From Halichondria panicea (lineage: Eukaryota; Porifera; Demospongiae; Suberitida; Halichondriidae): a DNA stretch of 64,000 bases. The stretch is from positions 3,352,201 to 3,416,200 of the forward strand of contig NC_087379.1 in the NCBI RefSeq assembly GCF_963675165.1. Direction: 5' to 3'. A program made the position numbers and the translations under genes. The notes below the pieces were generated by a model. That model was not told the DNA's origin. It did not search any database and worked only from the letters and a program-made list of their open reading frames with translations. This document shows, piece by piece, positions 117 to 61,093 of this stretch; the stretch's first letter is position 1; each line of letters starts with the position of its first letter.

Positions 117-1702
117 TCAGAGCTGGTTGTCTTCGAATTCATAATCAGAGTCTTCATACCTGAAAAGCTTGCTAGGAATAGATTCCACATCATCCTGTGA
201 AGAGATCGAGATTACTGATTAAATACACAGCAACAAAACAATGAACATCCTTCTGTTATAATGAGTGCTGCAAGCTGTACTGTGCTATATAATGCCTCTC
301 GCCATGTTTTGCTTTCGCTCAAGAACTATTGAGAGTGTTATAGAAGAGGAAAATATGTATTGTAATGTTACGTTATTATTGTTGATTGCAATTTTTGACA
401 ACGAATGATTATAGGAGAGCAGCTTAATGGACTATAAGTAATCGAATGATTATAGGAGAGCAGCTTAATGGACTATAAGTAATCAGTCGCCCTTCCTGAG
501 AGAGAGAGACCGTCTGAACACTCTTTACATGAACTCACGGGCCACGGTGGAATTGAAACGTGACCAATGAGATTCTTCACAAGCATCAGGTCATTTGAAT
601 AGGAGGCAGCAACTTTACATGCGGTTGAGCAGTAAGCAGTGATGTGGCATTGTGGCTAAGCTGAGATAGCGGATGTGACACATTTTTATGGTTTTGTTAG
701 CTGGTATAATTAATTATACATAATACATTCCATTGTGCCATGATGACTTCCCGTAACGAGTTTAGACATACGTTCCTCCCTGAGAGGTGCATGTGCTAAT
801 TATAATTTTTATCCCCCCAAACACCTACACGCTCATTAATACTAACTTAAAATGATAACCAGGAGCACATGAGGAGATGGAGCATTTTACTACGCATAGT
901 ATTGCGGATTCACTATCGTCTAAATTGTAAATTAATGTGCTAAAATTAATGCTCTGTAAATGTGTGCTGATAACGAATATCATAGTACAATGAATAATGT
1001 TAGCAGCACTTAGCGGTTTGACACAATTTTGCCATACTATATGCTCCATCTCCTCATGTGTGCTCCTTGGTATGACACACTCACTAAACCGTAGTTTGAA
1101 TTGTACTACTCCATCTGGTATTATATTAGAGTCACGTATAGCCTTGAGGCAATGCTTTGTAAGGGTTGTCATACCGTACAGCTGATAATTTCCAGGGGGT
1201 AAAATATTCGTGGTTTTTGTGTTGATCGAAGCTCTGACGAATATGTTACTCATGAATGAAGCGACCATGCCTACCTTTACCTGCAGTGCAAGCAGCAGCC
1301 ACGAAAGTATTATCCACGAAGAAGTAACTATGCCCCCGAAAATTACCGGCTATACGCCGTAACGGTGATATGATATAAAACACAGAATTGTATATGAGAA
1401 ATACAGGAAGCTCGCCCTTAGGCTTGTGCCCGATCTCATGCATGCCTGTATATAAAAATATACCCCCCCTTAAGGGAAGTTTCGAATACCTAAGTGGCTT
1501 TGATTGACAGTCTGCATGTGACATCCCTGCTTAGAAAAATGAGTACTGGCTCACCTCAATATGTCCTTTGTCAACATAGAGTGGATTCGTCACAACCCCC
1601 AGTGATGAATCAAATAGAGGATTTGAAAAGAAAAGGGGGTTGTCCTTAAATCCAAGGGCGGAGTGCCTCGTTCGCTCTGCAGTCTTTCCATTATTCACAT
1701 AT
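117..1702 (-). CDS. Exons 32-33: cytoplasmic tail with NPLF, NPLF and NPLY motifs
   Basis: Exon 32 (1702-1555) follows an acceptor ending AAAATAG. It restores the split Lys codon and reads [20 protein letters not shown], then NPLF, NPLF and NPLY within 25 residues, ending VDKGHIE before GTGAGC. Exon 33 (194-117) follows CTTCACAG, is phase 0 and reads [20 protein letters not shown], then EDNQL and TGA. NPx[FY] motifs bind PTB-domain and clathrin adaptors in integrin beta and LDL-receptor-family tails (established), so endocytosis or cytoskeletal linkage is likely (inference). The C-terminus is acidic, with two Tyr in acidic context. The full tail is about 85 residues. Confidence 0.8.
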
Positions 1703-4700
1703 CTATTTTAAAAGAAAGCAACAAAATTAGTTATGTAATAATGGGCCCATCAGAGTGCACTCACTTTTTTGGAGTCTTTTTTGGTGCTTTCTTCCTATAA
1801 AGTATTACCACAATAATTGCACTGAGAACAACTAAAAGAATGCCCATCACGATACAGAGAGCAATAATGAGCGCCAGCCCAAAAGCAGGAAGTTCAGTTG
1901 TAGGTATTGTGATGGAAACGTCTGGTGTAGGTAGTGCACTGGGGATTGGAATTTCACTAGGTAGAGACGATGTGACAAGAACATTCGATGTTGTCTGTGC
2001 CGGAGGAACTTCATTTGTTTTAGATACAGTTACTACTTTGGTTAGTGTGGGTACATGTACTGTGTCACCAGGTTCTGACTGGCTAACAGAAACCTCTTGT
2101 AATAAGGAAACTGTTTCTGACATCCAGGAAGGTGCCGATGTAAGCAGGGATGTTGGCATAGAGTGTGTACCGAGCGATACAGTGCTAGTACCGTAACTAT
2201 CCTGACGTGTTGATACTGTGATCGGAATTCCAGGTGTAGATATGGGGGCACTTGTCAGTGCAGGTTGAGGAACAAAAATCACAATCTGCATGAATCGTGT
2301 AAACATATCCATTATCAAAGTACATAGTTTTCATTGATATTCATGCACACATTTAATAATTGCATACATTATCATTTTTACTGGTCATGTGACCGTGTAG
2401 TACCTCCTCTGAGTTAGCGTAATCCACTTACCACCAGTATCTGTCCACCCAATGTAACAGTTGGCTTGGTATACACCCAGTTGACTAAACATTTTTTTTG
2501 ACCTTCGCTGCTATGGTTTGATCTAATCCCAACAAGGTTAGTCCTACAATTGAGACATTAATAATTATATAGATCTAGTTACCTACAACTCAAGGAGGTC
2601 AGACATGCGCGCACGCCCTAATGATTTTAAAAGTGCCTAAAATTGCAACTTCTAATATTGGTCTAGCTGGCCGTTATCACGTGACGGCAATGACACCAAT
2701 ACACTGTGTTGCACGCATGTCGGACCTTCTCTGATAAACAACTCAATGACAGCAAACTTTGTGCTTACTTGAGATTTACGATTGATGCAGTAGAAGGATA
2801 ATCACTAATACACTCCAACACTGTTTCTTTAAAACAGTATGTGTCCCTGAGGTTGCAAGATTCTGTATCACTATGAAGGATACTCAACATAAGCTTCTCA
2901 AGTTCACTGATTTTTTTAGTAGTGTTCAGCCCTACCCACTGAGCACATGACTCATTTCCTTGCAGTTGAATACTGAAATCAAAGGGAGAGACATCTGATG
3001 AAGTATTTAGTCTCGCTGGTGAGCTGAAGACTTCTGCAGCACATGAAGCAGACTTGACCGCAAACCAATATGTTGTACAAGCATCAAGTCCACTGATGGA
3101 GTACTGATTACCCTCAATTGTTCCAGGGAAAGATACTTCATTGTCCTGCAACAGTACATATTCCAATTTAAGTACACACTGAAATAATTAGAACACAAAC
3201 AGTAAGCTGAAAATTAACATAATGACTTGCATCCGTGAGGTTCTTGCCACGAAATACGTTGACGCCAACAACTTGAACGGGTGAATCCCATGTAATAACT
3301 GCTCTATCACCACTCAGAGTATCGAAGTAGCGGATAATGGAAGTGATCAGAGGAGGTGATAAACCAGCTAAACAAAGAGTGATTGAAATGATTTGTGTTG
3401 CTATATTGATAACTTACATCCATCATCTGTATACCATAGTTCATCATAGACTAGAAAGGAAGCTTGACAGAAAGAAACTGACACTTGAAGTCTGTAAGGC
3501 ACTGTGGGATCTAAAGTAATAGATGGACAGTTAATTAATTACTTGGTGGCCAAGCTAATGCATGCAGGCAAGCCTGTATAATTAAATTCAAATGCGTACC
3601 CAGCTGGAAAATGATAGTTGAAAAATGTCCATCATAGGGAACAACTATCGGAGAAGGTGTTGTGATATTCTCAAAATACTGTTCATTTTCGCAATTAGCT
3701 GTCACACTGACAACAAAGAAATCTCCATCAGAATGCTGAGCAGCTACTTCCTCTGTTTCTGTCCATGTAACTCTAAGTCCAGTGTTATTGAGAATGGCCA
3801 CGACCAACACCTCGATAGGATCTAAAGTCAAATGTATATTATAATGTGTGCAACTAGAGATCCATCATTGAAAAATTTAAAGGTGTCGGAGGGTAGACAG
3901 TTCCGTGCGTGTAGAATGTCCCCCAGACAGCCTGCTCTATAGGGTAGATTTTTATTTTAGGCACCCTACAAGAAAACCAAGCAGATATGTATCGGGGTCT
4001 GTGTACATTCTTGAGCGCAATATGCCTCAAACCAGGGGGGTGCATTTACCCATAGCATCACGTGAGGGGTTGCCTATCGCTCTCTTTCATCTATGCATGT
4101 TTACACAGATTCATTGCTTCTTGAGTTCTATATGTGCTACGTGCAAGGTGTGCAATTACTACCTGGGTTTAGTGAAGCCCTCCTCGACAGCTGTGCAAAA
4201 AAGAGAGGGACTATAGTCTGGAAAAACGTTTGCAATAATTACGAAAGTTGCATGTCAAAAGCGTGAAAACAAGCAAGCTGGAGATACTTAGCCGCACATT
4301 AATCCGTCACAACGAACAGTGAGACATTGCCAATACTCTTATCAATTCAAACAAAACGACTAGTTAATTGCGGGGTCAAATTGTTTGATGTATTAATTTT
4401 TACTACATATCACGAGAGCAAAAAACTTGACATTTCCTTGTCAAGAACATCATTTGCATCCCTGTGCTGGTAGAAAATGTGCATGACTATGAATGACGTT
4501 GTGACAGATTGACGTATGGCTCTCTTTCAACACTCTTTTTTAATGCTTCCTTGGTCAATCCTAGCAACTTTTACATTGCTTACCACTATAAAATGTGTAT
4601 ATATAGCATGTCTAACCTGACAAGTCAAATAGGGTCTTTACAGACTGAAATACAGCAGGATTGTTAGAACCAAAGTTTCCCAATAATGATACGGACAGCT

Positions 4701-7700
4701 TGATGTTGTATTCCATGCAGCAGAGAAGATTCCTGAATGTGTACGAAGTACTGTGGACAATCACATCTTCTATGAGACAAGTAGTGTTACTCTCTGTGAT
4801 CTCCAAACGAAACAGTTGAACAGGTCCTGCAAGAAACAGAAATCTGTTGCTAGTTTTTCCTTGCTAGATATTACAAACCGTAATAGATGTCAGGTTCATC
4901 CCAAGCAACTGTCACTGTATCACAAAGAGTGGGATCAAGGTTCTGAAACTGAAAATTGGTCGGCAACTGAGAATCTAAAGATATAGGATATTAATTTCAA
5001 TAAACACGAAGCGAGACAAAGTTACCGTTATAAATATAAACTGTTATGGAAGAGGAGCCATTGAACGTGTCCAGAGGATTCAATGGCGTAAGTGTAACAA
5101 TCTGATGCCCAGGAATGATACTCACATAAACCGGAATGTCTATTGTTATATTTAGAGCTTCAGGGCCAAAGACCAACATGCGAGAATAGCTGGCAGCATG
5201 ACTTCCTTCTGCGTGTGTGCGTGCATTGCGTGTGTGTAAAATAGAGTGCTGTGGCTAAGATATGTGTACCTTCGGTCACTAGGCTTAGCGATAAATTTGT
5301 TACAACAAGTCTTTCCAGATTTCCAGGCGCTGTCTCAATTGAAACAGTTACACTCAGAGATGCATCCGTGGAATTCACATATTCAGTTGTCTCATGGAAT
5401 GGCAGTTGTATAATAGAACCTAGTAATATCAACCACAGGAAAGATAAATTCACAGCACTGCTATAGGCACATTATGAGCGAAATGCAAGTAACATGCATT
5501 GCACCGTAAAACAATTTTACCATCGTCATCTATCAAATCAATTTCATAAAAGCTGCCATTGACTGTTATTCCATTCAGTGAGATTATAGTGAACACTAAA
5601 TTCTCCACATCCTCAACAGTATCATCATTCACAACATTGACCATAACGCAATGGGTTGTTCCATTTTGTGAAGCACTCAAAAAACTGAATTCGATTTGAC
5701 CGCATGGGGTGAGATCATCACAAGACACCATGACCGCAGATCCTACAAAAGAATTGCATGGATAATTATATTTAACGGCTGAAGCTGTGACGCTAATACA
5801 AAGCAGCCCTTCAAATTTACCTGAATTAGTGTTCGTTTTTGTCACTGAGATTACATTGGTCAAATCTGTTCGTAGTAGCTGATCAGTAATCAGTACACTG
5901 CAAATATTGAATGAGCCAATGCTCTCAGGAATTTGTGCTTTCACAGCTGAAGTTATTACAATCTTTATGCCTGCAGATACACAGAAATGTTACAATCTTA
6001 AATAATTATACTAAGCTATTTACATTGTGGAGCTTCTCTGTCCCATTGTCCGTATAGACTGCCTAGAATTCCTCTACAAGTCCGCACTGTATCATCTTGT
6101 TCGATGAGTGTGTAACCATCATCACATCGGTGAGTAGCTTCTGTTGTGACATCAAACGGGGGTGTAGAAGAACCAGTACTAAAGGATATTCTCCCATTTT
6201 CAAGATGGAGCATGTCCGTACACGTTATCACTATGATTATTGAAAAATATACTTAGCAAAGATAGTAGAGCTAAAACACAACGACTGTACATATAGCCTA
6301 AACTGTGGTTTAATTTCGCCACCTACGGTAGCAATCATGCTTCCTTACTTTCACATGTTGTAGGTGATCCTGACCACATAGTACTGTCATAACATAGGCG
6401 TCTCGTCACTGGATTGGTTGGACTGTAATTGACTTGACATTGATATGTAGCTGTTGATCCTGATGGATACTTGTTTTCTTCACTACTAAATGCAGAGTAT
6501 ACTATTACTCCATTGGCAATAGCATCCAAACGGAAACAGCCAACTGTATGATGGTTAAAACGGATCATGGAACTGCATGCAAGAGTACCCTGACTTACTC
6601 TGTACGCAAGTTTCATTAAGCTTTTCATATCCAGGATTGCAGGCACAACCATAAGATCCTTCAGTGTTGGTACAGTGAGAGTGTGCTGTGTTTGAGCAGA
6701 GATCGAATCCAGCAGTAGCTGCCTCCAAGCACTCATTAACATCTGTCAACAGTAAACATGATAAAAGCCACAATGCATGTCTTTGTCATACCTGTACATG
6801 CTTCATTAAGGAAGACATATCCATCGGAACATAAACACTCAAAACTTCCAATTGTATTGTGACACACTTGATCACAAGTATTTGTAGAGTCGCATTCATT
6901 TATATCTAAGATAAATGCATGGGATCATAATCTGTTATAGATCTACTACACAGCTGACTGCAGAGAGCAGACTTCTAACCTTCACATAGATTTCCATTTG
7001 ATAGGCTCAATCCCACAGGACAATAACAACGTTCTTCACCAGCAATCACGGCACAACAGCCGAACAAACACATGCCATCACAACGTTCCCTGGCTGTTGA
7101 GCATACAGAGATATAATTAATAGGTACTTTTAATTTAGTTAAGAACGTACGAGTACAGGTGTAGTCATCATCCAATAGGGTATATCCGTCCTCACAATCA
7201 CAGGTGAATGAGCCCAACATATTCACACACACCTGGTGACAGCTGTTCACTCTGTCACATTCATTAATATCTGCATTGACAATAATGTAACTACCAGCTG
7301 CTGTGTTAGAAACTGTGATATACACAGTAACGGCGTGCAACCAACTGGTGAATACTTATGTAAGTACATTTATATAAATACATCAAGACAGACAAAACTT
7401 CCACGAAGAAAGCAGCATTGACGAGGTTATTACGGTATAGTGCTCTATAATAATACACATGCAGCTTGTCACAATCAGTTAGTGTACATTAATGAACACC
7501 TTCACAGTTGAATCCATCATCCATTAGTTGGTAACCTTCGTTGCACTCACAAGTGTAGCTACCATCAGTGTTAGTACATATTTGATGACAAAGGTTGGCA
7601 TTGAGAGAGCACTCATCGATATCTACAGAATCCCAAATGTATTACAGTATGAAACAACAGGTACTGTTTTGCACTTCAAAGATTGCACTCTATTGTTACG

Positions 7701-13700: not shown

Positions 13701-14302
13701 CTTTAAATTAGCCTAGGTACTAGTTACGTACGTAGGTCCAGCTAGCTAGCCTAGATCAGATTTATCCAACACACAGGAAAGGGAAGCACAGTAGGCCATT
13801 AGCCTCTCGAGGTGCTCCCTACACAAACATATAAATTATACCACAGGTGTTGATGCCTCCGTGGAGATGCCAAAGCTACATAACATAAAGCTACTAAGCT
13901 AGCTTTATACACACATTGATTATAATTATCATGATGAACATTTTTGCATGCAAAATCCAGGGAAACTCAAAGAGTGGGTAATGATCGACGATGATTGTTG
14001 TTAAAAACGATCGATGAAGTCAGCAGAGCCTTGCAGCTCTCTTTTCACTCTTGCAGCTACCAATAGCTAGCGTTCTAGTGCAGAGCTAACTACTAAGTAG
14101 AGTATAACAACACTCGGTAAACAAGTTTGGCTACGTGCTCTTCCGAAAGGCTGCAATGCATGGCATTCCAAGTAAAGCAAAACTAGGCATAACTCGAGAA
14201 CAAAGCATTATTTTGCAAATCCACGAATTAAAATCCAAGAAAACATGACTAGAAGCCTATAGAAACTCTTACTTGCACTTCATTGCAGCTGTAGCAGTCT
14301 AC

Positions 14303-14341
<39 letters not shown>

Positions 14342-56300: not shown

Positions 56301-59300
56301 ATTCAGATGTTAACAGAAACTTCCCGAAGGATGGTAGGTCATACTCCTACAGAGCAGCTATCAGGTAATTTGTTTCAGAAATTAGCCCATGTGATAATTT
56401 TCTTGGACTTTGTGTTTTCGACTACTTGTTCCCTGCATAATTTTTTCTTCAAGGGCAAACTCCATGCATACAGAGAAAGTTATATGTCTGATCTTGGTCC
56501 AGCAAGGACTATAGTCTTACTAGCTGCTACGTACCTACTTTCTTCACTAAAATGAGTAGTTAACATGTGGCATTCAGCTACTGCGCATGCTCAACTCTTT
56601 ATTCTGGGTGGGCTTATAATCGAGTGAAAACACCCTTGTGCAAGAACTTTGAAGCAAAAGAGGGGATGGGCGTTTATTTAAGATGGGCTTATTTTTGCGA
56701 GGGTACGGTACTATCAGGGGGCATGTGATTCAGTAATAGGGGTAGCTCAGAGATGTACGCATTGGACAAAATAATTTTCTCAGGCTTTCGCGGGAGTTGT
56801 GAAGAAATACATGATGGTCCCCAGAGCCACTACGTAGATCATTGTAAACATCACACAGTGGCAGATCCGGGGGAGATCCCAGGGTGCAATGGATCCCCCC
56901 TTTTAGTCTAGCTATTATGGCTTTATAGTACAAGGAGCGTATAGCCAGGAATTTTTGGAAGAGGGGCAAAACTTATCAGCCGCGCAGCGCCGAAATTTTG
57001 ACCGGAATCCACGCCTCTTAATTATGACATCATACTTGACTTCTCTACATAGTTGGGTGTGGCCTGATGTTTTATTTGCCGCATAGCCATAGAAGAAGCT
57101 AGTTTAGCAAAGAACAAGAATTGTCTATAGATTTAGACCAGAATAGCTCACAGTTTAGAGACTAAATCGTTTTGCTTGCCTACTAGCTAGCTAACTGCAG
57201 CAAGATTTGGAAGAAAGGGAGTGCTCAGCAAGATAATCAGCTAAACTAACCTGAGCTGAGTAGTAGAGATCCAGAAAAAGGGGGGCATTTGCCCCCTTTG
57301 CCACCCCTGGCTACGCCACTGACAGCTACCAGCTAGCTCAGTATCGTTTATCAGTTTTTGAAGCTATTGAGCACCACCCACCTACCCAACTAGAGCACTG
57401 AAGTGCTAACCTGACAGAATAAATAGATTTACTGGGTATAAAACCCGATAGTAAATAAGCAACAATTCTACTCCGGTAAAGGATCAATAGTGCCTGGGGG
57501 AAGTAATTATATAATAATTATAATCACTGGACATCACCTAGGATATGGAGTGAATCAGTAAATAAAAGATTAATAGCACCCATAACAAGCACTGGCAAGG
57601 TTAATAGCACTCGGCCTCGTGCAATTAGTAGCCTTAATTGCTATTGCTTGTTACGTGTGCTATTAATCCCATATTGCATGCACTCTTACTACCTTTTATA
57701 TTTAATCAGAATTTATTGCCTGTACATGTCACTGCATGTACGTGTCACAAAAACTAATTTGTGACATTTTATTCACACAGGTAAAGTGGTACCCATGTGT
57801 TATGATCTTTCTTCCTGCCAATCACGTGAGGAGATTGGCTCCAGACTACATACAGACTAAGGGCTAGCTAGAACAGAATTTCCTTGTCGCTCAATTGGAG
57901 CACTTATTAGGCGCTTCTAGATCTATTAGGGCGGTACTGTAGTAAGAAAAAAGACGATGACGATATCATCGGCACATTATCTATGGACAAACACATACAC
58001 ACGGTGAGCTTAATTACTAATTATATTATACCTCTGTGGCTATAACACCATGGAGGCATAATGAAATTGTGTACCCCAAGCTCACCATTAACCGTCAGAG
58101 TGATATTCATCTTTACTGATCCTGCAATGTTGGTTGCCACACAGCTGTAAACACCAGAATCAGAAGCCTCAGAGTATATTAACGTAAGATTGCTCTTAAC
58201 ACTGGTTTCGTTAGTAGAAGTGTCACCGATCAAGAGTTTACTAGCATTGTTTGTGATCACCATGTCGAAATATTCCCACGAAATCTCTGGTTTTGGGATG
58301 CCACTTGTTTCACATGAAAGTGAAACCTGCTCGTCCACAGCAACAGTAACACTAGTGTTGTCACTTATCAGTGAGGGTGGAGCTGCAAAACATAAGCTAA
58401 TATCATGCATGTAGCGTAGTGTGGAAGGGTGATGAAATTTAATCGTAAGTGGGCGGTAACCGCAATTCTCAGTTAGAATGCTCTACAGCAGTCACTTTTG
58501 TATGCCACTAGCTCGATCTAACTGACCTGGCGTACGTGCCTGTATCAAGCTGGCTTAGCTTGTTTACCATTGATTTGACTAAAGAGAATTACCGTATAAG
58601 CTCTTTTTAAGCTAGGCGCCCCTCTAAAGATGCCTAAAGATGCGCCATGAAGCCTCCGAAAGTAATTTTCCAAATGGAGCTCCACCACGTGTGAGTAATT
58701 ATTTTTAGACGGTGCATGGTAAATAGAGGTAAAATGAGCAAACAGATCACAGAATTCATATATGGGCAGCCCCTAAGCCAAAACGAACCACAGTATATAT
58801 ATACCTCTTCAACATGTGCAACCTACGTAAAGGCCTATTGAAAGACCAAAAAACTGCTGCAAGTGCCATATGCACAGTCTATTTGCAAAGCTGTTTTTTT
58901 ACCTCCAATTAGAAGGCGCCCCTTAAAGACGCACCATCCAGCCTTGAAACTAAAATAAGAGAGGGCATGCAACAGCAAATGAGCAGAGTTTAAACGTGGG
59001 CAGATGAATGTGCATGATTGTATGAAATGCTAAAAATAGACATTTCTATTTTTAGCACGTTTTACATATTCACACATTCCTCCGCCCACGTTTGAACTCT
59101 AGCTAGCGCTACATGTAATGAGTTGCATGCCCTTGAAATTATTGTGTTACAAGATCAACAGGCCTTTTTCTGTGCTGAAATACAGCTACAGCTCCCCCTC
59201 CCGCTTATTTGTTTCCGTGCTTTCCCCAGCCAATCCTAACATTGATTGCAAAAGCTTTCATCGTTTAGACTAGTATAACAGTATAGCCATATACCATAAT

Positions 59301-61093
59301 CATACATACCAATTACATACCAGCAAGAATTTGACCAGAGAGGTAAGCGTAACCAAGTGCCGGACCACCACTGAAACCATACACAAGAGCAGAAAATAGA
59401 CCTGTGTTTGTCGCATGTAAGCTGTGTTGTATAGGTGACCTTTGGTCTGATCCAGTGAAGCCAGATTTGCTGCAGCCATAACCAACAGTCACCATATCTG
59501 AGTTATTAATTTTAGTCCAATCACAGTCTATTACTTCGTTATCCAGGAGAATGTCTATTTCAGTGTACAGCTCCGCCGTTACTGTAACACTGATAAAGGT
59601 TGAAGGAAATGTAGTTGTGGGTAAAGCATAAAATGATACTCTGTTTACATAGCTGCCAATTGGAGAAATCAAAGCTACAGCTGTGTCACCACTAGAGTCT
59701 ATAACATTATCTATGGATGCTTGAAAAACCAGTACTGGATCAAGAGATTCAAGATAGCAGTACTCGGAAGAATTAAACAGATGTTGAATGATGTCGTGAA
59801 AATGGTACGACACTTTCCCACAAGTGTAGTTTATCGATGTCTGACTTGCTGCAATAATTTTAAAATATTGATCACTTGCTCTTCCAGCGAATGGTGCTAA
59901 GAGGAATTTGGAACCCCAGGTGTCAAGAGGAGGAATATGTATAGCTAGCGGTTCACATACACCGGCAGAGTCAGCAATATTGCCACACTCATGACCACTG
60001 ATTACAGTGATTGGCCTGTTTGAGACGATTTTTGTGCCAGTGAGATTTTCATGACTGTTCACGAGCAAAGTTTGCATCTGATTCAGACGCAGTTGCCAAC
60101 TAAATGAGCCAGTAGATACCAATACAGTTGGAGCGTTCTCTATTTGAAGGTCAGTTGGAATATTTACATCTTGAGTTGGATATATAACAAAAAGAGTTTC
60201 ATTTTCACATCCAACAAGAAGAAATTGACTATGAGCAAAGCCTGATGAGTCTTCAGCCGAGAATACATAGTAAGTGTACTCTCTAGCAAGTTCCAGTTGC
60301 AGGCAAGGGTATGCAAGAAATACTCCATGGTTAACCCCATTTATATAATTTTCTCCAATAACAAACAAAGGTTCATCACCAGTTGTATACACATGAATTC
60401 CCTTGTTCCGATCGCTAGAGCCCAACACTTCTAGTTCAATATCGGAAGCAACTGTGTAAGAGGAACTTGCAGATATGGTACCTCCATCAATCTGCATTGG
60501 AATGCTAGTATCGGCACTTAGTGTTTCTACAACAAAGTCAACCGACGAGGTAGCAGCTGTACCGATCAACAGCCTGACTGATGAAAAGGCACCACCACCA
60601 ATATTAGGCATGAAGCCAAGATAGAAGTCTGTTCCATAAGCAGATGCTACATAAATGGATACTATGAGACATGCAAAAGAAACAGGAAATAGTTGCAACT
60701 GTTAAAGTATTTAGGCTTCATCAAGCACATTCAACTGAGAATTTCAAAACTTACACGGTGTACTCGTTGCAAAAGCGCCAGAGTAGTGAGAAACTGCAAA
60801 ACCTATAGATATGAAAAATACATGCTGTAACAACTTGCAATCGACAACCAACATGTGGTCAATTATGGCTTCACATAAATAATTACAACTAACTTTTGGG
60901 TTAATTGGTATTCCCACATGATGCTTTTTTACTGTCTGATGTCATACGTAACGTTATAATTATGGTCTATAGTATAATTATAGGGAAGTTTTAGCTTGTC
61001 ATTGCAAAAAACGTGAGTCCAGGTGCACCAGCCTGATCTTTACTTCAACCTGAGATTGAACTCACTCAGAACTAAGAGATACAGAGCAGCCAT
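117..61093 (-). CDS. 33-exon single-pass adhesion receptor: IgGFcBP-N, Ig, NIDO, AMOP, VWD, EGF, CCP, Calx-beta, FN3, TM, NPxY tail
   Basis: I assembled this gene by eye from GT-AG boundaries and matching splice phases. Exons, 5' to 3': 61093-61066, 60802-60755, 60661-59321, 58382-58086, 52069-51909, 51607-51264 (frame problem), 43303-42756, 31808-31621, 17025-16817, 16592-16232, 8777-8529, 8333-7971, 7890-7735, 7622-7500, 7270-7151, 7093-6980, 6905-6792, 6742-6599, 6543-6349, 6230-6024, 5970-5821, 5742-5521, 5419-5270, 5157-5026, 4974-4879, 4826-4617, 3821-3600, 3367-3219, 3178-2769, 2543-2432, 2285-1765, 1702-1555, 194-117. All junctions keep frame except inside exon 6. The product is about 2,614 residues if exon 6 loses a 65-bp intron. 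NIDO-AMOP-VWD is the core of MUC4/SUSD2-type proteins (family knowledge). A surface adhesion or recognition role is inferred. The least certain boundaries are the 5' end of exon 10 and the exon 28/29 junction. Two adjacent genes remain possible but would make the matching phases a coincidence. Confidence 0.8.
195..1554. other. Intron 32: tandem duplication and dispersed repeat fragments
   Basis: This 1.36-kb intron of the receptor contains a 41-bp unit present twice back to back (402-442 and 443-483). It also has a stretch at about 261-370 that recurs near 46580-46690 (TGCCTCTCGCCATG core) and a fragment at about 486-520 resembling the end of the 14649-15866 element. Around 857-885 and 1037-1068 a 30-bp segment recurs inverted (CATGAGGAGATGGAGCAT). 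A 147-codon minus frame at 825-1268 has no recognisable domain and overlaps the inverted repeat, so I do not call it a gene. Confidence 0.5.
402..483. repeat. 41-bp perfect tandem duplication
   Basis: Two identical copies start CGAATGATTATAGGAGAG and end GGACTATAAGTAAT, directly adjacent. This is a recent local duplication inside intron 32. Confidence 0.9.
1765..2543 (-). CDS. Exons 30-31: juxtamembrane Cys segment, Ser/Thr-rich stalk, membrane helix
   Basis: Exon 30 (2543-2432) joins in phase 2 to exon 29 and reads [20 protein letters not shown], then [16 protein letters not shown]. Exon 31 (2285-1765) begins [14 protein letters not shown] and continues as about 130 residues rich in Ser, Thr and Pro, a likely O-glycosylated stalk. 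A hydrophobic stretch follows at about residues 2501-2530 ([20 protein letters not shown], then [10 protein letters not shown]), ending in basic [11 protein letters not shown]. This gives a type I topology with the modules outside. The TGA after PKK is not the true end: it overlaps a strong GTGAGT donor (1764-1759) and is spliced out. Confidence 0.82.
2769..4974 (-). CDS. Exons 25-29: three fibronectin type III modules and start of a Cys-containing module
   Basis: Exons 25 (4974-4879) and 26 (4826-4617) form one FN3 ([40 protein letters not shown]). Exon 27 (3821-3600) holds a second ([34 protein letters not shown]). Exons 28 (3367-3219) and 29 (3178-2769) hold a third ([43 protein letters not shown]). 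The W of the B strand and the Tyr-rich F/G region are the FN3 signs. The rest of exon 29 ([18 protein letters not shown], then [10 protein letters not shown], further Cys) is a separate module that continues in exon 30. The intron between exons 28 and 29 is only 40 bp. Its donor GTTAAT is non-ideal but is the one that keeps frame. Confidence 0.78.
3822..4616. other. Intron 26: no gene content recognised
   Basis: This 795-bp intron separates the first and second FN3 modules. Short open frames on both strands have no domain features. I see no clear transposon ends. Confidence 0.5.
5026..5970 (-). CDS. Exons 21-24: Calx-beta module plus a probable second Calx-beta-like module
   Basis: Exons 21 (5970-5821) and 22 (5742-5521) together encode a Calx-beta module: [17 protein letters not shown] at the start, then [17 protein letters not shown] and a D-D-D-G ending, the D/E-rich edge that binds calcium in this family. 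The donor at 5820 removes a 78-bp stretch that is open in frame, so an unspliced reading looks deceptively continuous. Exons 23 (5419-5270) and 24 (5157-5026) are weaker: [20 protein letters not shown] and [20 protein letters not shown] fit a beta-sandwich of similar type but lack a clean signature. All four exons are 1-1. Calx-beta modules are also prominent in sponge aggregation factors (established knowledge). Confidence 0.75.
6024..6543 (-). CDS. Exons 19-20: two sushi (CCP) domains
   Basis: Exon 19 (6543-6349, 195 bp) and exon 20 (6230-6024, 207 bp) are symmetric 1-1, one CCP module each. Exon 19 has [42 protein letters not shown] and TTCE. Exon 20 has [49 protein letters not shown]. Both show the four-Cys plus conserved-Trp CCP pattern (C...G-x-[VI]...C...C-x-x-x-x-x-W...C). 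CCP modules generally mediate protein binding; no specific partner can be deduced. Donors are GTAAGG (6348) and GTAAAT (6023). Confidence 0.9.
6599..7890 (-). CDS. Exons 13-18: six EGF-like modules, four with calcium-binding consensus
   Basis: There are six exons, all phase 1-1, and each is about one module. Exon 13 (7890-7735) reads [36 protein letters not shown]; this atypical EGF directly follows the NIDO-AMOP-VWD block in cnidarian and sponge relatives (recalled family pattern). Exon 14 (7622-7500) begins [16 protein letters not shown]. Exon 15 (7270-7151) begins [11 protein letters not shown]. Exon 16 (7093-6980) has [12 protein letters not shown] and [10 protein letters not shown] and lacks the calcium motif. 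Exon 17 (6905-6792) begins [11 protein letters not shown]. Exon 18 (6742-6599) begins [13 protein letters not shown]-[IV]-[DN]-E-C is the calcium-binding EGF start and implies a rigid rod. The separating introns are only 49-229 bp. Confidence 0.9.
7971..8777 (-). CDS. Exons 11-12: post-VWD linker and cadherin-like/EGF region of MUC4-type proteins
   Basis: Exon 11 (8777-8529) reads [10 protein letters not shown], then [20 protein letters not shown] and [20 protein letters not shown]. The last matches the conserved C-x-x-[DN]-x-x-C-L-F-D segment that follows the VWD in MUC4/SUSD2-like proteins. Exon 12 (8333-7971) starts [20 protein letters not shown], a cadherin-like or Ig-like fold, then [14 protein letters not shown] and [14 protein letters not shown], leading into an EGF fold completed by exon 13. 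Both exons are symmetric 1-1. Exon 12 ends at GTAAGT with a second GTAAGA donor 12 bp downstream; using the second would include an in-frame stop. Confidence 0.82.
8855..9402. mobile_element. Inverted-repeat (fold-back type) element, right end displaced to 14530-14600
   Basis: The left arm (about 8855-9075) starts GGGACATTCCATGTCAACTC. The right arm (about 9255-9402) is its imperfect reverse complement and stops at GGTAAGGTATGTA. The missing outer part, starting ATGTATATGCCAAGTTTTGG and ending GACATGGAATGTCCC, occurs at 14530-14600 in the correct orientation. The element is non-coding and was probably split by a later 5.1-kb insertion. Confidence 0.6.
10080..13622. mobile_element. TIR element A with tandem-repeat-filled inverted ends
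   Basis: The ends are TATGGGGTGCCGTTTG (left) and its reverse complement (right, ending CGGCACCCCATA), followed inside by TCTCAAAACTAATAAA. Next to each end lies a tandem array of a unit of about 20 bp with core TCGATGTTTAGCAACC: roughly 5 units on the left (10112-10205) and about 11 in inverse orientation on the right (13370-13590). Further inward, 10203-10259 and 13319-13378 are again inverted copies. The interior has no coding sequence and carries other small elements. TGGGCAT lies on both flanks and may be a target duplication. The structure resembles fold-back/Galileo-type elements with subrepeat-built TIRs. Confidence 0.65.
11552..11945. mobile_element. Pogo-like MITE
   Basis: The left end, ACAGTAGACTCTCGTTAATC, and the right end, which reads AGAGTCTATACTGTA, are imperfect inverted repeats. 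ACAGTAGA-[AC]-CTCG is a start common in pogo/Tigger-related non-autonomous elements (family knowledge). It contains no coding sequence. Confidence 0.45.
14305..14361. repeat. (CAGA)n-(CA)n microsatellite
   Basis: CAGA tetranucleotide repeats pass directly into CA dinucleotide repeats. The same composite recurs at other copies of the neighbouring MITE family (for example 39493-39590 and 48615-48635). Confidence 0.9.
14649..15866. mobile_element. 1.2-kb TIR transposon, possibly with degraded ORF
   Basis: The ends are inverted repeats of about 55 bp: CTAGTCTCATGAATCACCCG on the left and CATGAGACTAG on the right, with CCTTCCTA and CGTCTGAGCA/GCCTGAGCA following inward. The interior holds a 73-codon plus frame (14711-14932) and two short minus frames (15374-15625, 15632-15817). 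None has a transposase motif I recognise. A related end fragment lies in intron 32 (about 486-520). Confidence 0.55.
15932..16205. mobile_element. hAT-like MITE next to exon 10
   Basis: The perfect terminal inverted repeat is CAGGGTTTCATACAG, 274 bp end to end, with a G/C-run-rich interior. CAGGG-type ends suggest hAT, but no 8-bp target duplication is visible. The right end lies 26 bp from the exon 10 donor side. Confidence 0.6.
16232..17025 (-). CDS. Exons 9-10: von Willebrand type D domain
   Basis: Exon 9 (17025-16817) begins [20 protein letters not shown], the hallmark VWD start (GDPH-x-x-T-x-D-G-x-x-[YF]-x-F-x-G), and continues LGNFVLFEA. Exon 10 (16592-16232) supplies the C-terminal half, with [27 protein letters not shown], then [11 protein letters not shown], matching the family G-L-x-G-N-x-[ND]-G motif. 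The 5' boundary of exon 10 is the least sure: CACAG at 16593-16597 is the nearest acceptor that keeps phase 0, but its polypyrimidine tract is weak. Exon 10 ends at a GTGAGT donor just 26 bp from a MITE end. In MUC4/SUSD2 this VWD sits next to NIDO and AMOP, as here. Confidence 0.82.
17803..17914. mobile_element. 112-bp MITE with 19-bp perfect TIR
   Basis: TTAGACACTGTTTAGGAAG on the left and its exact reverse complement on the right flank a short GC-richer centre. A degraded direct copy lies at about 17388-17500. Confidence 0.7.
17961..18168. mobile_element. About 208-bp MITE; second copy at 50411-50620
   Basis: The ends read CCTTAAGGTGACAT and ATGTCACC. The interior (GCAAAAATTAGTACTCGCAA, ATCGACATTTCGCAAAAA) is almost identical to the copy inside the copia 3' LTR, where the element is flanked by TA on both sides. 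TA flanks suggest the Tc1/mariner or pogo group (inference). Confidence 0.65.
19382..21640 (+). pseudogene. Decayed Ty3/gypsy LTR retrotransposon (gag knuckle, protease, RT, integrase remnants)
   Basis: Fragments follow each other in the normal pol order but in several frames. They are a gag nucleocapsid region with one intact CCHC knuckle ([15 protein letters not shown]) and a second that has lost its last Cys (19580-19690), a protease-like stretch whose active-site motif is altered (DKGAEV, about 19791-20012), the RT N-half ([50 protein letters not shown], 20284-20560), then directly an integrase zinc-binding region (QCSTCSKHF) and a core fragment ([16 protein letters not shown], about 20860-21079). 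The RT catalytic part and RNase H are deleted. AGAGAAAGGGGG at 21472-21483 looks like a polypurine tract, followed by a possible 3' LTR start. It is antisense to the host gene and inactive. Confidence 0.8.
23898..25369 (+). pseudogene. 5'-truncated LINE (non-LTR) reverse transcriptase fragment
   Basis: The sequence begins inside the RT ([20 protein letters not shown]) and carries the non-LTR RT signature [14 protein letters not shown]. After a frameshift comes [20 protein letters not shown], the A-D-D catalytic box, then the thumb/C-terminal region [20 protein letters not shown] and [12 protein letters not shown] (24370-24870). Further broken frames run to 25369. TIR element B interrupts it there, and matching LINE-like sequence resumes at 27584 ([12 protein letters not shown]). 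Several frameshifts and 5' truncation make it dead. The clade cannot be decided by eye. Confidence 0.75.
25566..26280. repeat. 24-bp minisatellite, left array of element B
   Basis: There are about 28 degenerate units with core GCAGCAGTCGCATATAATA. Orientation flips at about 25735, so the first few units face the rest. The unit length is a multiple of 3 and has few stops, which creates ORF artefacts in several frames on both strands. Confidence 0.85.
26310..26582. mobile_element. Pogo-like MITE within element B
   Basis: CCTCGATTATCCGG on the left and CCGGATAATCGAGGTTCTAC on the right are inverted. Internal ATTATCCGG copies support a Tc1/pogo-type non-autonomous element. No ORF was seen. Confidence 0.5.
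27050..27380. repeat. 24-bp minisatellite, right array of element B
   Basis: This has the same unit as the left array in inverse orientation (core TATGCGACTGCTGCATTTAT), about 14 units. Confidence 0.85.
27666..28057. repeat. Inverted copy of the repeat at 9667-10029, CAGGGGCGG end
   Basis: Read on the minus strand from 28057 it starts CAGGGGCGGATCCAGGAAAA and follows the 9667-10029 sequence over some 360-390 bp, including CTTGCAACT, TGAAAAAGTCTGAGATCT and TTGCAGCAGCATGC. CAGGGGCGGA is a common hAT-type terminus. The two copies face each other across 17.6 kb that includes exons 9 and 10. Confidence 0.65.
29328..29401. repeat. Perfect hairpin, about 33-bp arms
   Basis: The arms TTTCCAATATTACTTCAGG... 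and its exact complement meet around a 9-base loop (TGATTCCAA). The perfection suggests recent origin or gene conversion. Confidence 0.85.
30002..30161. repeat. Imperfect hairpin, about 65-bp arms
   Basis: CAGAGGTTTTCAGGCAGGTTG at the left pairs with CAACCTACCTGAAAACCTCTG at the right. The arms continue inward through GCTTCAGAGTG and GCATAAGTTATA. Confidence 0.75.
30369..31086. mobile_element. 718-bp hAT-like MITE with 8-bp target duplication
   Basis: The left end CTAGTTGGGCGGAGTCCAAC and the right end GTTGGACTCCGCCCAACTA form a TIR of about 23 bp. GTCTACAG is repeated directly outside (30361-30368 and 31087-31094). An 8-bp duplication is typical of hAT insertion. Open frames inside (for example 30724-31083 minus) have no transposase signature. 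Confidence 0.75.
31621..31808 (-). CDS. Exon 8: C-terminal half of AMOP
   Basis: This 188-bp exon runs from phase 2 to phase 1 and lies alone between introns of 10.9 and 14.6 kb. Joined to exon 7 it reads [19 protein letters not shown], then [19 protein letters not shown] and GYTPPNTC. The CC...C-x-x-[YF]-x-x-x-R/P-rich ending is the second half of the AMOP domain of MUC4-like proteins. There it always leads to a VWD that starts with a Gly-Asp-Pro-His sequence, and exon 9 supplies exactly that. The acceptor is TTTATATAG and the donor GTGAGT. The exon is too short to stand out without its neighbours; phase and domain order identify it. Confidence 0.8.
32381..33088 (-). repeat. Right terminal block of the Ngaro-like element: B, spacer, A, B
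   Basis: Copies of B at 32381-32560 and 32922-33088 start TAACATT and CCCCGAACCAAACTAGACCC. The first has an extra 13-bp internal duplication (CCTGACCGCACCC). Copy A occupies 32750-32921. The spacer 32561-32749 includes an A-rich tract at 32605-32695. Confidence 0.88.
33253..34308 (-). pseudogene. Tyrosine recombinase of the Ngaro-like element (frameshifted)
   Basis: The C-terminal catalytic part (33780-33253) is intact and has the R ([13 protein letters not shown]), H-x-x-R ([12 protein letters not shown]), [10 protein letters not shown] and the nucleophile Tyr in [10 protein letters not shown]. The N-terminal part lies in other frames at 34308-33790 ([32 protein letters not shown]). The frame changes near 33785, between TQDQVMR and the FFGF strand. 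In this family the enzyme inserts a circular DNA copy by site-specific recombination, so no target duplication forms. The break suggests that the copy is inactive unless it is a sequencing error. Confidence 0.82.
34211..35811 (-). pseudogene. Reverse transcriptase and RNase H of the Ngaro-like element (frameshifted)
   Basis: A 427-codon frame (35811-34528) holds the [42 protein letters not shown], the catalytic box [10 protein letters not shown] and the thumb region [11 protein letters not shown]. RNase H begins with [10 protein letters not shown] and continues in a second frame (34561-34211) with [14 protein letters not shown] and the C-terminal [15 protein letters not shown] frameshift near 34560-34580 separates them. 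Sequence upstream of the RT core has no clear function. Confidence 0.85.
36010..36740 (-). pseudogene. Gag-like protein of the Ngaro-like element (frameshifted)
   Basis: Frame one (36740-36105) has a capsid-like helical region, [20 protein letters not shown] then [13 protein letters not shown] second frame (36312-36010) carries [16 protein letters not shown], resembling a zinc-knuckle nucleic-acid-binding motif. The switch near 36310 suggests a frameshift. The assignment rests on position before the RT and on general character. Confidence 0.6.
36902..37075. repeat. Four tandem units in the leader of the Ngaro-like element
   Basis: CAGCTTGAGAGTAGG recurs every 49-57 bp with CCGACCCC and GAGCTCT following. 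Four copies lie between the 5' repeat A and gag. Confidence 0.75.
40206..40756. mobile_element. 551-bp MULE-like MITE with 9-bp target duplication
   Basis: TIRs of about 60 bp start TAGCCTTGATTCCAGGCTGC (left) and end GCCTGGAATCGAGGCTA (right), with GCGGCCTGGTATACCTTG inside each. GTACTACAC is duplicated exactly outside (40197-40205, 40757-40765). A 9-bp duplication with long TIRs fits Mutator-like elements. Related ends occur near 44119 and 46063. Confidence 0.78.
42257..42345. repeat. Hairpin with GC-rich tip
   Basis: ATGGGATTATGATACCC and its partner GGTCTCATAATCCCAT enclose TAGCGCCCTC and GGGGCGCTA around a short CTGCGCTC loop. Confidence 0.8.
42756..43303 (-). CDS. Exon 7: C-terminal NIDO and N-terminal AMOP
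   Basis: This 548-bp exon runs from phase 0 to phase 2. It starts [21 protein letters not shown], the usual NIDO strand before the conserved C-G-G-x-x-W-T, and continues through [10 protein letters not shown] and a Cys. A linker with RKRQ (a possible basic cleavage site) leads into an AMOP-like segment containing [15 protein letters not shown] and the final QQCCYDD, which corresponds to the Cys-Cys-Tyr element of AMOP domains. The acceptor CTGTGCAG lies at 43304-43310 and the donor GTTAGT at 42755. A small palindromic MITE remnant (about 42683-42739) lies only 16 bp beyond the donor. Confidence 0.82.
44909..45260. mobile_element. PIF/Harbinger-like MITE with TTA target duplication
   Basis: The left end TGCACCTATCAATGTCAGTC and the right end AATTGATGGGTGCA carry long, partly C/G-homopolymeric TIRs of about 40 bp (CCCCACTACCCCC). 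TTA flanks both ends (44906-44908, 45261-45263), the 3-bp duplication of PIF/Harbinger. Confidence 0.7.
46199..46302. repeat. Hairpin of about 40-bp arms
   Basis: TGACTGGTTGCCTAGTAATT and AATTACTAGTCAACCAGTC pair, continuing inward with ATGGTTTATAACCAAC and GTTGGTTATAAGCCAT. It may be a very short palindromic element. Confidence 0.8.
47901..48562. mobile_element. 662-bp hAT-like element inserted in an older repeat
   Basis: The ends CAGTGGCGTAGGAAG and CTTCCTACTCCTCTG are inverted. The flanks (CCTATAGAAGC and GAAGCTGTTAG) join into the repeat family that is uninterrupted at 21655-21960 and 28315-28510. A 95-codon minus frame (48053-48337) lacks a recognisable domain. Confidence 0.65.
49257..50320 (+). 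pseudogene. 5'-truncated Ty1/copia retrotransposon: RT end and RNase H
   Basis: The sequence starts inside the RT at [20 protein letters not shown], giving the catalytic YVDD box, then [14 protein letters not shown]. After a frame change comes the connection and RNase [66 protein letters not shown]. The final region ([31 protein letters not shown]) is in another frame and carries a short palindromic insertion. The 5' LTR, gag, protease, integrase and RT N-half are absent. It is antisense to the host gene and inactive. Confidence 0.85.
50141..50162. repeat. 20-bp palindrome inserted in the copia RNase H region
   Basis: CAGGAGTGCATGCACTCCTG is a perfect palindrome placed where the copia protein should continue from HYVREQ, and it shifts the frame. 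A longer version (with GCATGCATGC) lies near 38503-38522. Confidence 0.8.
50321..50720 (+). mobile_element. 3' LTR of the copia element, with nested MITE
   Basis: AAGTGGGAG just before 50321 is the polypurine tract. The LTR begins TGTTGAACAT and ends ATTGAACA. A MITE of about 210 bp (50411-50620, TA flanks) is inserted in it. No 5' LTR was seen in the window. Confidence 0.65.
50843..51215. mobile_element. hAT-like MITE
   Basis: CAGGGGCGTAGCCAGG and its exact reverse complement CCTGGCTACGCCCCTG end a 373-bp non-coding element. A related copy occupies about 56930-57332. Its right end lies 48 bp beyond the exon 6 donor. Confidence 0.75.
51264..52069 (-). CDS. Exons 5-6: first part of the NIDO domain, with a frame break in exon 6
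   Basis: Exon 5 (52069-51909) ends [11 protein letters not shown] and joins in phase to exon 6 (51607-51264), which starts [16 protein letters not shown]. This is the usual beginning of a NIDO domain (nidogen-like extracellular domain), followed by [11 protein letters not shown] and the ATYYYQEE strand. FSGTWLLIG follows in that frame. The next conserved element, [17 protein letters not shown], is in a different frame. Exon 6 as drawn is 344 bp, which is not a multiple of 3, although phase 0 is needed at both ends. Either one base is missing near 51345, or a 65-bp intron (51385-51321, GTAAGA to ATCAG) is removed; the latter restores frame but deletes the Trp-rich motif. Exon 5 lies 301 bp upstream of exon 6. 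Confidence 0.75.
52471..52548. repeat. Hairpin, 20-bp arms
   Basis: GATATATTGGCTCAGTAGTG pairs with CACTACTGAGCCAATATATC around a GC-rich loop. Confidence 0.85.
55116..55424. repeat. 155-bp tandem duplication
   Basis: Both copies run from CACACTATTTGTTATATC to AATAAGCCCATCTT and differ by one T (GAGTGCGC versus GAGGCGC). The second copy includes the left end of the adjacent inverted-repeat element, so that end is duplicated. Confidence 0.88.
55395..56712. mobile_element. 1.3-kb long inverted repeat (two arms of about 570-590 bp)
   Basis: The left arm starts TACCGTACCCTCGCGAAAAT and passes AAGCCCATCTTGAATAAACG and GGACCAAGATCAGACATATA. The right arm carries the complements in reverse order (TATATGTCTGATCTTGGTCC, AGATGGGCTTATTTTTGCGA) and ends GGTACGGTA. 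The arms run about 55395-55990 and 56145-56712 with a 150-bp centre, which itself contains another copy of the terminal motif (TACCGTACCACCCTCGCGAA). Divergence is moderate. Open frames 55574-55867 (minus) and 56259-56555 (plus) are the same arm sequence read in mirror image, not genes. Confidence 0.8.
58086..58382 (-). CDS. Exon 4: immunoglobulin domain (I-set like)
   Basis: This 297-bp symmetric 1-1 exon encodes one complete Ig domain. It begins [24 protein letters not shown], and this first Cys pairs with the Cys of [11 protein letters not shown]. The Trp of ISWEYF is in the expected place, and the A'-G strand pattern ends in [10 protein letters not shown]-x-G-x-Y-x-C is the canonical F-strand motif. 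The intron before it (58383-59320, 938 bp) contains a near-perfect hairpin centred near 59041. The exon ends at a GTGAGC donor whose phase fits exon 5, 6 kb away. Confidence 0.88.
58963..59137. repeat. Hairpin of about 80-bp arms in intron 3
   Basis: GGGCATGCAAC...AACGTGGGC...TGCTAAAAATAGA is followed directly by TCTATTTTTAGCA...GCCCACGTT...GTTGCATGCCC with almost no loop. Confidence 0.8.
59321..60661 (-). CDS. Exon 3: IgGFc-binding protein N-terminal domain
   Basis: This 1,341-bp exon encodes residues about 26-473 and is phase 1 at both ends. It matches the IgGFc-binding protein N-terminal family: [11 protein letters not shown] at the start, [15 protein letters not shown] and [10 protein letters not shown] in the middle, then [15 protein letters not shown], which resembles the family WG-x-x-F-x-x-P-F signature. 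Cysteines sit at the expected places. In vertebrate FCGBP the domain precedes repeated VWD-type assemblies, and many invertebrate and bacterial proteins carry it alone (family knowledge). Here it is the outermost domain of a membrane protein. The acceptor ends CTCATAG at 60662, after a pyrimidine-rich tract. The donor is GTATGT at 59320. Confidence 0.88.
60755..61093 (-). CDS. Exons 1-2: start codon and signal peptide of the adhesion receptor
   Basis: Exon 1 (61093-61066) starts at ATG and reads [10 protein letters not shown], split by a GTGAGT donor. Exon 2 (60802-60755) follows an acceptor ending CTATAG and reads [15 protein letters not shown] up to a GTAAGT donor. Splicing in phase gives a typical secretory signal: short N-region, Leu/Val core, small residues before cleavage. 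It runs straight into exon 3. This replaces a longer open frame that enters exon 3 from 60698, which has no ATG and whose first residues are the exon 3 polypyrimidine tract. In-frame Met codons lie further upstream of 61093, but they precede hydrophilic sequence with no signal character. A TATA-like stretch at about 61146-61158 lies some 55-65 bp upstream of the ATG. Confidence 0.75.

Follow-up and report, generated by a model that had tools for sequence, protein, structure and literature searches.

Do the short open reading frames scattered over 61 kb of a Halichondria panicea contig belong to one gene and, if so, what does it encode? The window, by which we mean the whole stretch of 64,000 nucleotides that was analysed (C3:3352201-3416200 of a 131-Mb genome in 39 contigs), had been reported in a preliminary description to hold a single 33-exon gene running from an ATG at 61093 to a stop at 117. 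We rebuilt the model on the minus strand, to which all exon coordinates below refer, by combining open frames with splice sites and with paralogs. The queries for the genome searches were the exons of IgGFc, NIDO-AMOP and the post-VWD part, together with the NIDO family. The rebuilt gene has 33 exons from the ATG at 61093 to a stop ending at 117 and spans 60,977 bp. With a 65-bp candidate intron assumed to be spliced, every intron is GT-AG, phases match throughout and the only stop is the terminal one, in agreement with the earlier claim, and the boundaries that the description quoted in place of an exon list (51264, 43303, 42756, 31621, 17025, 61093 and 117) all recur in the model.

The model comprises 2,632 codons including the stop, or 2,634 (7,902 bp of coding sequence) after a shift of the exon 28/29 boundary that was chosen by comparison with a related gene, locus H. 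Most of its introns measure 49-300 bp; single introns of 419, 795, 938 and 1,360 bp and five long ones of 6,016, 7,960, 10,947, 14,595 and 7,454 bp make up the rest. The exons flanking the long introns measure 57, 548, 188, 209, 361 and 249 bp, so that the picture of isolated 48-200-bp exons between them fits some of these exons, not all. An Rfam scan of the window at the gathering threshold returned zero matches.

Four places in the genome carry all blocks in the same order (IgGFc followed by NIDO-AMOP-VWD-EGF) inside ~4 to 8 kb: paralogs A (C12, 4.21 Mb, minus strand), B (C12, 4.18 Mb, plus strand), C (C3, 4.01 Mb, plus strand) and D (C1, 10.80 Mb, plus strand). A fifth paralog, F (C5, 3.54 Mb, plus strand), has the block without IgGFc. 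Paralog G on C4 is partial and outside this count of five, and loci E and H were handled separately.

Exons and predicted domains

The exon proposed to carry the signal peptide, at 61066-61093 (MAALYLLVL, phase 0 to 1), fits the chain, but its donor is weak (score 0.7). It lacks paralog support and would yield a signal peptide of ~12 residues; we regard it as doubtful and as the least certain exon of the model. An alternative first exon of 33 residues at 60755-60854, which ends in phase 1, has a donor score of 2.3, lies 108 bp of intron away from exon 2 and leaves the chain open. Its more usual predicted signal peptide makes it the better candidate.

Two domains that the preliminary description overlooked follow. 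Exon 2 (59321-60646) encodes an IgGFc_binding domain (PF17517, E 1.2e-40; 140.1 bits against a cut-off of 25.6) with 41-49% identity to paralogs A-E, and it begins in phase 1 in the window gene and in all of A-E, the phase in D being judged by an acceptor at position 1231 of that paralog. Exon 3 (58086-58382, phase 1-1) encodes an immunoglobulin domain (I-set, E 4.5e-16) and has no counterpart between IgGFc and NIDO in the model of paralog A. A genome search for IgGFc-type exons gave at least 132 matches (92 of 133 candidates scored), and such exons stand in long arrays at C1:14.6-15.1, 16.5-16.6 and 17.5-17.7 Mb, C5:6.0-7.6 Mb and C11:2.15-2.31 Mb. The closest to the window's, among the matches listed, is at 51% identity in the left neighbour at C3:3340910-3351992, a predicted adhesion GPCR (GAIN 9.8e-16, 7tm_2 1.8e-12, GPS 6e-8) that also has FN3 repeats. 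This neighbour lies tail to tail with the window gene, the predicted stops being 325 bp apart.

Exon 4 (51909-52069) precedes NIDO and matches paralogs A and C. The second part of NIDO lies in exon 7 (42756-43303; PF06119, E 8e-8; 31-37% identity to A-D) together with the first part of an AMOP-like region, which ends in exon 8 (31621-31808; its phases, 2 to 1, recur in A, C and F, and D has a match). AMOP scores 16.1 bits (E 0.013) against a cut-off of 25, and a longer piece gives no AMOP row at E 0.01; the paralogs score 21.8 (A), 16.9 (C), 21.2 (D) and 25.1 (F) bits. VWD starts in exon 9 (16817-17025) and continues in exon 10 (16232-16592), both with counterparts in A-D; the PF00094 match of 27.3 bits (cut-off 22.9, E 5.1e-6) is confined to the first 29 of its 156 positions. 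A GDPH motif in exon 9 is shared by all seven VWD-bearing models examined (the window gene, A, B, C, D, F and G) and is absent from E and H.

Paralog matches below window position 17000 are those in the same orientation with E <0.03. Exon 11 (8529-8777), matched in A-D, holds an RQKR site and a MUC4-type C8-3 domain (PF23263, E 5e-8; 32.6 bits against a cut-off of 25). RXKR after VWD is present in the window gene, A, B, D and G and absent in C and F, and an earlier RXKR pattern of B and D has no match in the window gene. Exon 12 (7971-8333; 30-45% identity to A-D) leads to six EGF exons: the EGF-like exons 13 (7735-7890; 58-64% identity to A-D) and 16 (6980-7093; paralogs), and the EGF_CA exons 14 (7500-7622), 15 (7151-7270), 17 (6792-6905) and 18 (6599-6742), which paralogs and Pfam both support (E 1.9e-22 for EGF_CA in the spliced model). 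Two sushi domains occupy exons 19 (6349-6543) and 20 (6024-6230; PF00084, two stretches, E 1.7e-13).

The C-terminal part begins with exon 21 (5521-5970), which resembles Calx-beta weakly (16.8 bits, E 0.0069; cut-off 27). The assignment is unproven because a single-sequence AlphaFold model of the exon is uninformative (mean pLDDT 38.2). The idea that domain halves complete each other on splicing is borne out by NIDO; AMOP and Calx-beta fall below their Pfam cut-offs in the window gene. Exons 22 (5270-5419) and 23 (5026-5139) are placed by chain and phase, and exons 21-23 have no paralog match. An FN3 domain (fn3, E 3.9e-13) is divided between exons 24 (4879-4974) and 25 (4617-4826), both supported by locus H, as are exons 27 (3418-3510) and 30 (2432-2543); the FN3-like exon 26 (3600-3821) is matched by locus H and its relatives. 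For the FN3-like exon 28 (3219-3367) the end at 3219 comes from the locus H comparison, the script's choice being 3258, and exon 29 (2769-3145) starts at 3145, where the script chose 3178.

Exon 31 (1765-2285) encodes a Ser/Thr/Pro-rich stalk and a hydrophobic stretch from residue 2518 that, judged by eye, forms a single transmembrane segment, followed by a predicted cytoplasmic tail. The tail carries NPLF, NPLF and NPLY in exon 32 (1555-1702), which is defined by comparison with locus H; read-through would stop near 1531. The last 25 codons and the stop are placed by chaining in exon 33 (117-194), and an AATAAA lies at window position 16 on the minus strand, ~100 bp beyond the stop.

Residues 1969-2401 align with locus H (C3:6.49 Mb) at 30% identity over 446 residues. 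Locus H is a predicted receptor with SRCR (1.6e-64) and FN3 (1.1e-21) domains and a tail with one NPLF; the window gene has no SRCR row. The relatives of the C-terminal part are four SRCR-FN3 loci on C3 at 6.40-6.54 Mb and a fifth, weaker one. Across the interval C3:6398910-6541279, five or more loci are related to the C-terminal part, one of them an SRCR-FN3-transmembrane receptor.

The first NIDO exon

In the paralogs the first NIDO exon measures 378, 372, 351, 378 and 354 bp, in all five a multiple of three. In the window gene it measures 344 bp, which is not, and the alignment with each of the five shows a 7-nt gap at which the paralog match changes frame; the junction at 51264 in the preliminary description needs the second frame. 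The gap lies in a 65-bp candidate intron (51321-51385) that is coding in all five paralogs. This candidate divides the exon into exon 5 (51386-51607; PF06119 and four paralogs), with the first part of NIDO, and exon 6 (51264-51320), the end of that part, with second-frame matches to A-D. The frame is kept and the count of 33 exons is reached because the 65-bp intron is assumed to be spliced. On that assumption NIDO gives one match of 63.2 bits (cut-off 25, E 4.3e-17) over positions 2-166 of 186. The two halves alone, from two exons, score 37.8 and 32.9 bits, and the spliced score is below their sum because the model omits the 65-bp piece. The shortfall counts against an intact gene, and a full-length protein from the reference haplotype is in doubt on these sequence grounds. 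The haplotype would produce either a form lacking 22 codons, by way of the 65-bp intron, or a truncated protein.

Three explanations can be considered. A null allele or young pseudogene, in which the shortfall throws the sequence out of frame and truncates the product at residue 711, is a serious possibility that we place somewhat short of even. The contrast of 344 bp with five paralog exons that keep the frame speaks for it, as does the first stop, which falls at residue 711 when the 65-bp piece is retained; yet the remaining 32 exons contain no other stop or frame break, and the shortfall is seen in the reference haplotype only, where a consensus error is possible.

A second explanation, which we regard as possible but distinctly doubtful, is that 65 bp of former NIDO coding sequence are now spliced out as a newly used intron and, together with the 7 nt, remove 24 codons with the frame kept. 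The piece has the features of an intron (GT-AG, phase 0-0, donor 2.8, acceptor 1.3), with scores within the range of the model's other introns. On the other hand, an occasional fitting intron is expected by chance, none of the five paralogs uses this one, and the removed piece encodes a NIDO strand, W-[ML]-[LF]-[IV]-A-[HQ]-W, that is conserved in all five. Exon-to-intron conversion is itself a known process, for which PMC2740785 and PMC3565874 are listed as examples.

An assembly or base-calling error is unlikely, as a 7-nt loss outside a homopolymer would be an unusual one, although the sequence comes from a single assembly and the NIDO exon, searched against the genome as DNA, has no other near-identical copy there, its matches being two partial ones of 82% and 71%. 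NIDO exons as a family are abundant and clustered, with 110 matches at E <=0.001 and concentrations at C1:3.2-4.6, C5:3.27-3.55 and C8:6.57-6.61 Mb.

Paralogs, chaining and the long introns

To compare the chain with chance we used an exon-chaining script, its codon table taken from the paralogs only, with the plus strand and 40 dinucleotide shuffles as controls. The last 9.2 kb gave a chain score of 216.2, compared with 37.3 for the plus strand and 15.0 +/- 6.3 for the shuffles (maximum 31.4). For the last 6.0 kb, from which no paralog segment entered the training, the values were 118.6, 26.5 and 8.9 +/- 4.9 (maximum 24.0). A script trained partly on the window gene itself gave 227.0, compared with 38.8 for the plus strand and 13.3 +/- 5.2 for the shuffles. 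The 9.2-kb chains terminate exactly at 194-117. Chaining of the whole window as a gene model was rejected: it returned 53 pieces on the plus strand and 89 or 67 exons on the minus strand, and on either strand it packed the long introns with spurious pieces. Since it links such pieces across long introns, chaining is by itself weak evidence there, and the link across them rests on the paralogs.

The collinear spliced alignments with the paralogs extend over 1,114 residues for A (41% identity), 1,267 for C (36%), 1,091 for B (39%) and 1,339 for F (35%), and D aligns in two pieces of 740 and 473 residues. Exon end phases are identical in all exons compared for A (15/15), C (11/11) and F (7/7); in B and D the script added one and two extra small exons, respectively, and the other phases agree. 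At the four positions where the window gene has introns of 7,960, 10,947, 14,595 and 7,454 bp, those of paralog A measure 52, 94, 74 and 86 bp. The corresponding introns are 166, 568, 338 and 68 bp in B, the second of which contains one additional predicted piece; 72, 105, 102 and 188 bp in C; 56, 301, 2,873 and 51 bp in D, the third of which contains two additional predicted pieces; and 630, 73, 246 and 148 bp in F. Pieces that lie 7-15 kb apart in the window are thus adjacent in five paralogs, with end phases in agreement, as the earlier reading of one gene rather than several would have it. IgGFc is linked to NIDO in four paralogs (A-D) and not in the fifth, F. For the step from sushi to Calx-beta and FN3 there is no paralog; its basis is short introns (53, 101, 130 bp etc.) and an open chain, exons 20 and 21 being joined by chaining. 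From the sequence comparisons it is very likely that the scattered exons form one gene.

Two or more genes, with for example IgGFc-Ig, NIDO-AMOP and VWD-to-transmembrane as separate transcription units, are very improbable: the 6.0-14.6-kb introns do contain other open frames, including reverse transcriptase frames, the IgGFc exon also occurs on the unrelated receptor next door, and paralog F presents a NIDO block with sushi repeats ahead and no IgGFc match nearby, but each long intron occupies a position at which the paralogs have a same-phase intron of ordinary size, and separate units would split NIDO, AMOP and VWD each in mid-domain. The predicted chain of paralog F (C5:3.53-3.55 Mb) itself continues, after a long sushi array, into a second NIDO-AMOP-VWD block with a second GDPH, and may represent either a single tandem protein or two adjacent genes.

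Much of the long introns is dispersed repeat. The repeats cover at least 5,080 of 10,801 bases (at least 47%) at 31900-42700, which is most of the 10.9-kb intron, and at least 8,950 of 14,401 bases (at least 62%) at 17100-31500, most of the 14.6-kb intron; both values are lower bounds from the best 39 of 5,476 and 39 of 10,324 candidates scored. Each stretch holds a reverse transcriptase (RVT_1) frame, at 34531-35829 (E 1.2e-11) and, on the plus strand, at 20227-20748 (E 5.8e-11). An RVT_3 row at 49498-49989 is below the cut-off, and a Pfam scan of nine intron open frames gave no row above cut-off and one BTG row at E 0.063. A bacterial or viral origin of the GC-rich 32-40-kb stretch was rejected on account of the reverse transcriptase frame and dispersed repeats found there.

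An element at 40204-40758 has 62-nt inverted ends that are 97% complementary, and its first 460 bases recur at 91-96% identity in at least 36 places in the genome; other copies seem to be ~200 bp longer in the middle, where the two matched portions meet. At 25575-26271 and 27062-27519 lie two 22-bp repeat arrays, similar in sequence and opposite in orientation, ~0.8 kb apart. In the 6-kb intron, a 154-bp unit occurs twice at 55116-55424 with a 99% match, a recent tandem duplication.

Proposed product and comparison with known systems

As a whole, the observations are best explained, with a high degree of confidence, by a single-pass transmembrane receptor or adhesin of ~2,630 residues from one minus-strand transcription unit. 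Its predicted domain order is IgGFc_binding, Ig, NIDO, AMOP-like, VWD, MUC4-type C8-3, EGFs, two sushi, Calx-beta-like, FN3, transmembrane segment and tail. The protein would be translated as one chain and then cut at GDPH in VWD, as proposed for MUC4. A second cut could occur at the basic RQKR after VWD, and a membrane-tethered part would remain. The ectodomain may bind matrix, cells or microbes. NPxY/F motifs recruit PTB-domain or endocytic adaptors, and those in the tail would do so here.

As for its origin, the long introns probably grew by transposon insertion into old intron positions that are short in the paralogs. The N-terminal block and the C-terminal FN3-transmembrane-tail block would represent two receptor families joined via phase-1 exons. 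We infer that the IgGFc, NIDO-VWD and FN3-transmembrane-tail blocks were recombined here, as expected of phase-1 exon shuffling. A fuller reading would be a receptor gene in the middle of remodelling: a mosaic of an IgGFc-NIDO-AMOP-VWD ectodomain with the FN3-transmembrane-NPLF end of an SRCR receptor, inflated at least eightfold by transposons, in which the loss of 7 nt from NIDO is offset by a new 65-bp intron made from coding DNA (72 nt, 24 codons). We put this forward as tentative and, taken whole, improbable.

For gene prediction in compact genomes the locus offers a clean test: paralogs of ~40% identity that share the intron positions show exons 8-15 kb apart to be members of one gene, which was beyond the reach of exon chaining by itself. 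It enlarges what is known of the large and rapidly changing receptor families of this genome, in which the IgGFc, NIDO-VWD and FN3-transmembrane-tail blocks appear to be swapped among MUC4-like proteins, SRCR receptors and an adhesion GPCR. Should the 65-bp intron be used, it would provide a dated case of coding DNA turning into an intron following a frame break.

In the parts of the open-access literature covered, titles and abstract openings, no description of this domain combination was found. Sponge receptor domains including NIDO, IgGFc-binding, Calx-beta and Sushi, and pattern-recognition receptors of Halichondria panicea, are the subject of PMC8242945, whose receptors, from the accessible text, are likened to the window gene by the domains named and not by their arrangement. 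Among the symbiont-responsive genes of the sponge D. avara, PMC11229196 lists, in its accessible text, one with NIDO and one with Calx-beta.

Locus H shares with the window gene two FN3-like units, the pre-membrane region and the NPLF tail motif, and has SRCR domains where the window gene has its IgGFc-NIDO-VWD-EGF block. With FCGBP the gene has the IgGFc_binding domain in common, and when its AMOP-VWD region is compared with solved structures the top match is to the beginning of VWD in FCGBP (8rde, E 8.8e-17, 33 residues). In contrast to FCGBP, it is predicted to be membrane-bound and is without the VWD-C8-TIL series, the spliced model having one VWD and no TIL row.

Human MUC4 and the cnidarian mucin4-like proteins share with it the order NIDO, AMOP (AMOP-like in the window gene) and VWD, GDPH, a MUC4-type C8-3, EGFs, a transmembrane segment and a tail, to which the window gene adds IgGFc and Ig at the N-terminus and sushi and FN3 repeats before the membrane. 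For human MUC4, the accessible text of PMC8660890 gives a putative self-cleavage at GDPH into an outer NIDO-AMOP part and a membrane-tethered EGF part, and the cnidarian mucin4-like NIDO-AMOP-VWD proteins carry extra FN3, CUB and ZP domains (PMC9080433, likewise). The large Ser/Thr mucin repeat of MUC4 is absent from the 33-exon model, whose Ser/Thr/Pro-rich sequence lies only beside the membrane, and has no counterpart as a coding array among the tandem repeats listed for the window. Apart from this repeat and AMOP (16.1 bits), the features looked for are present in the predicted product, which we class as a mosaic transmembrane receptor within the MUC4-like NIDO-AMOP-VWD group. The family is a known one, and it is the gene structure that is unusual.
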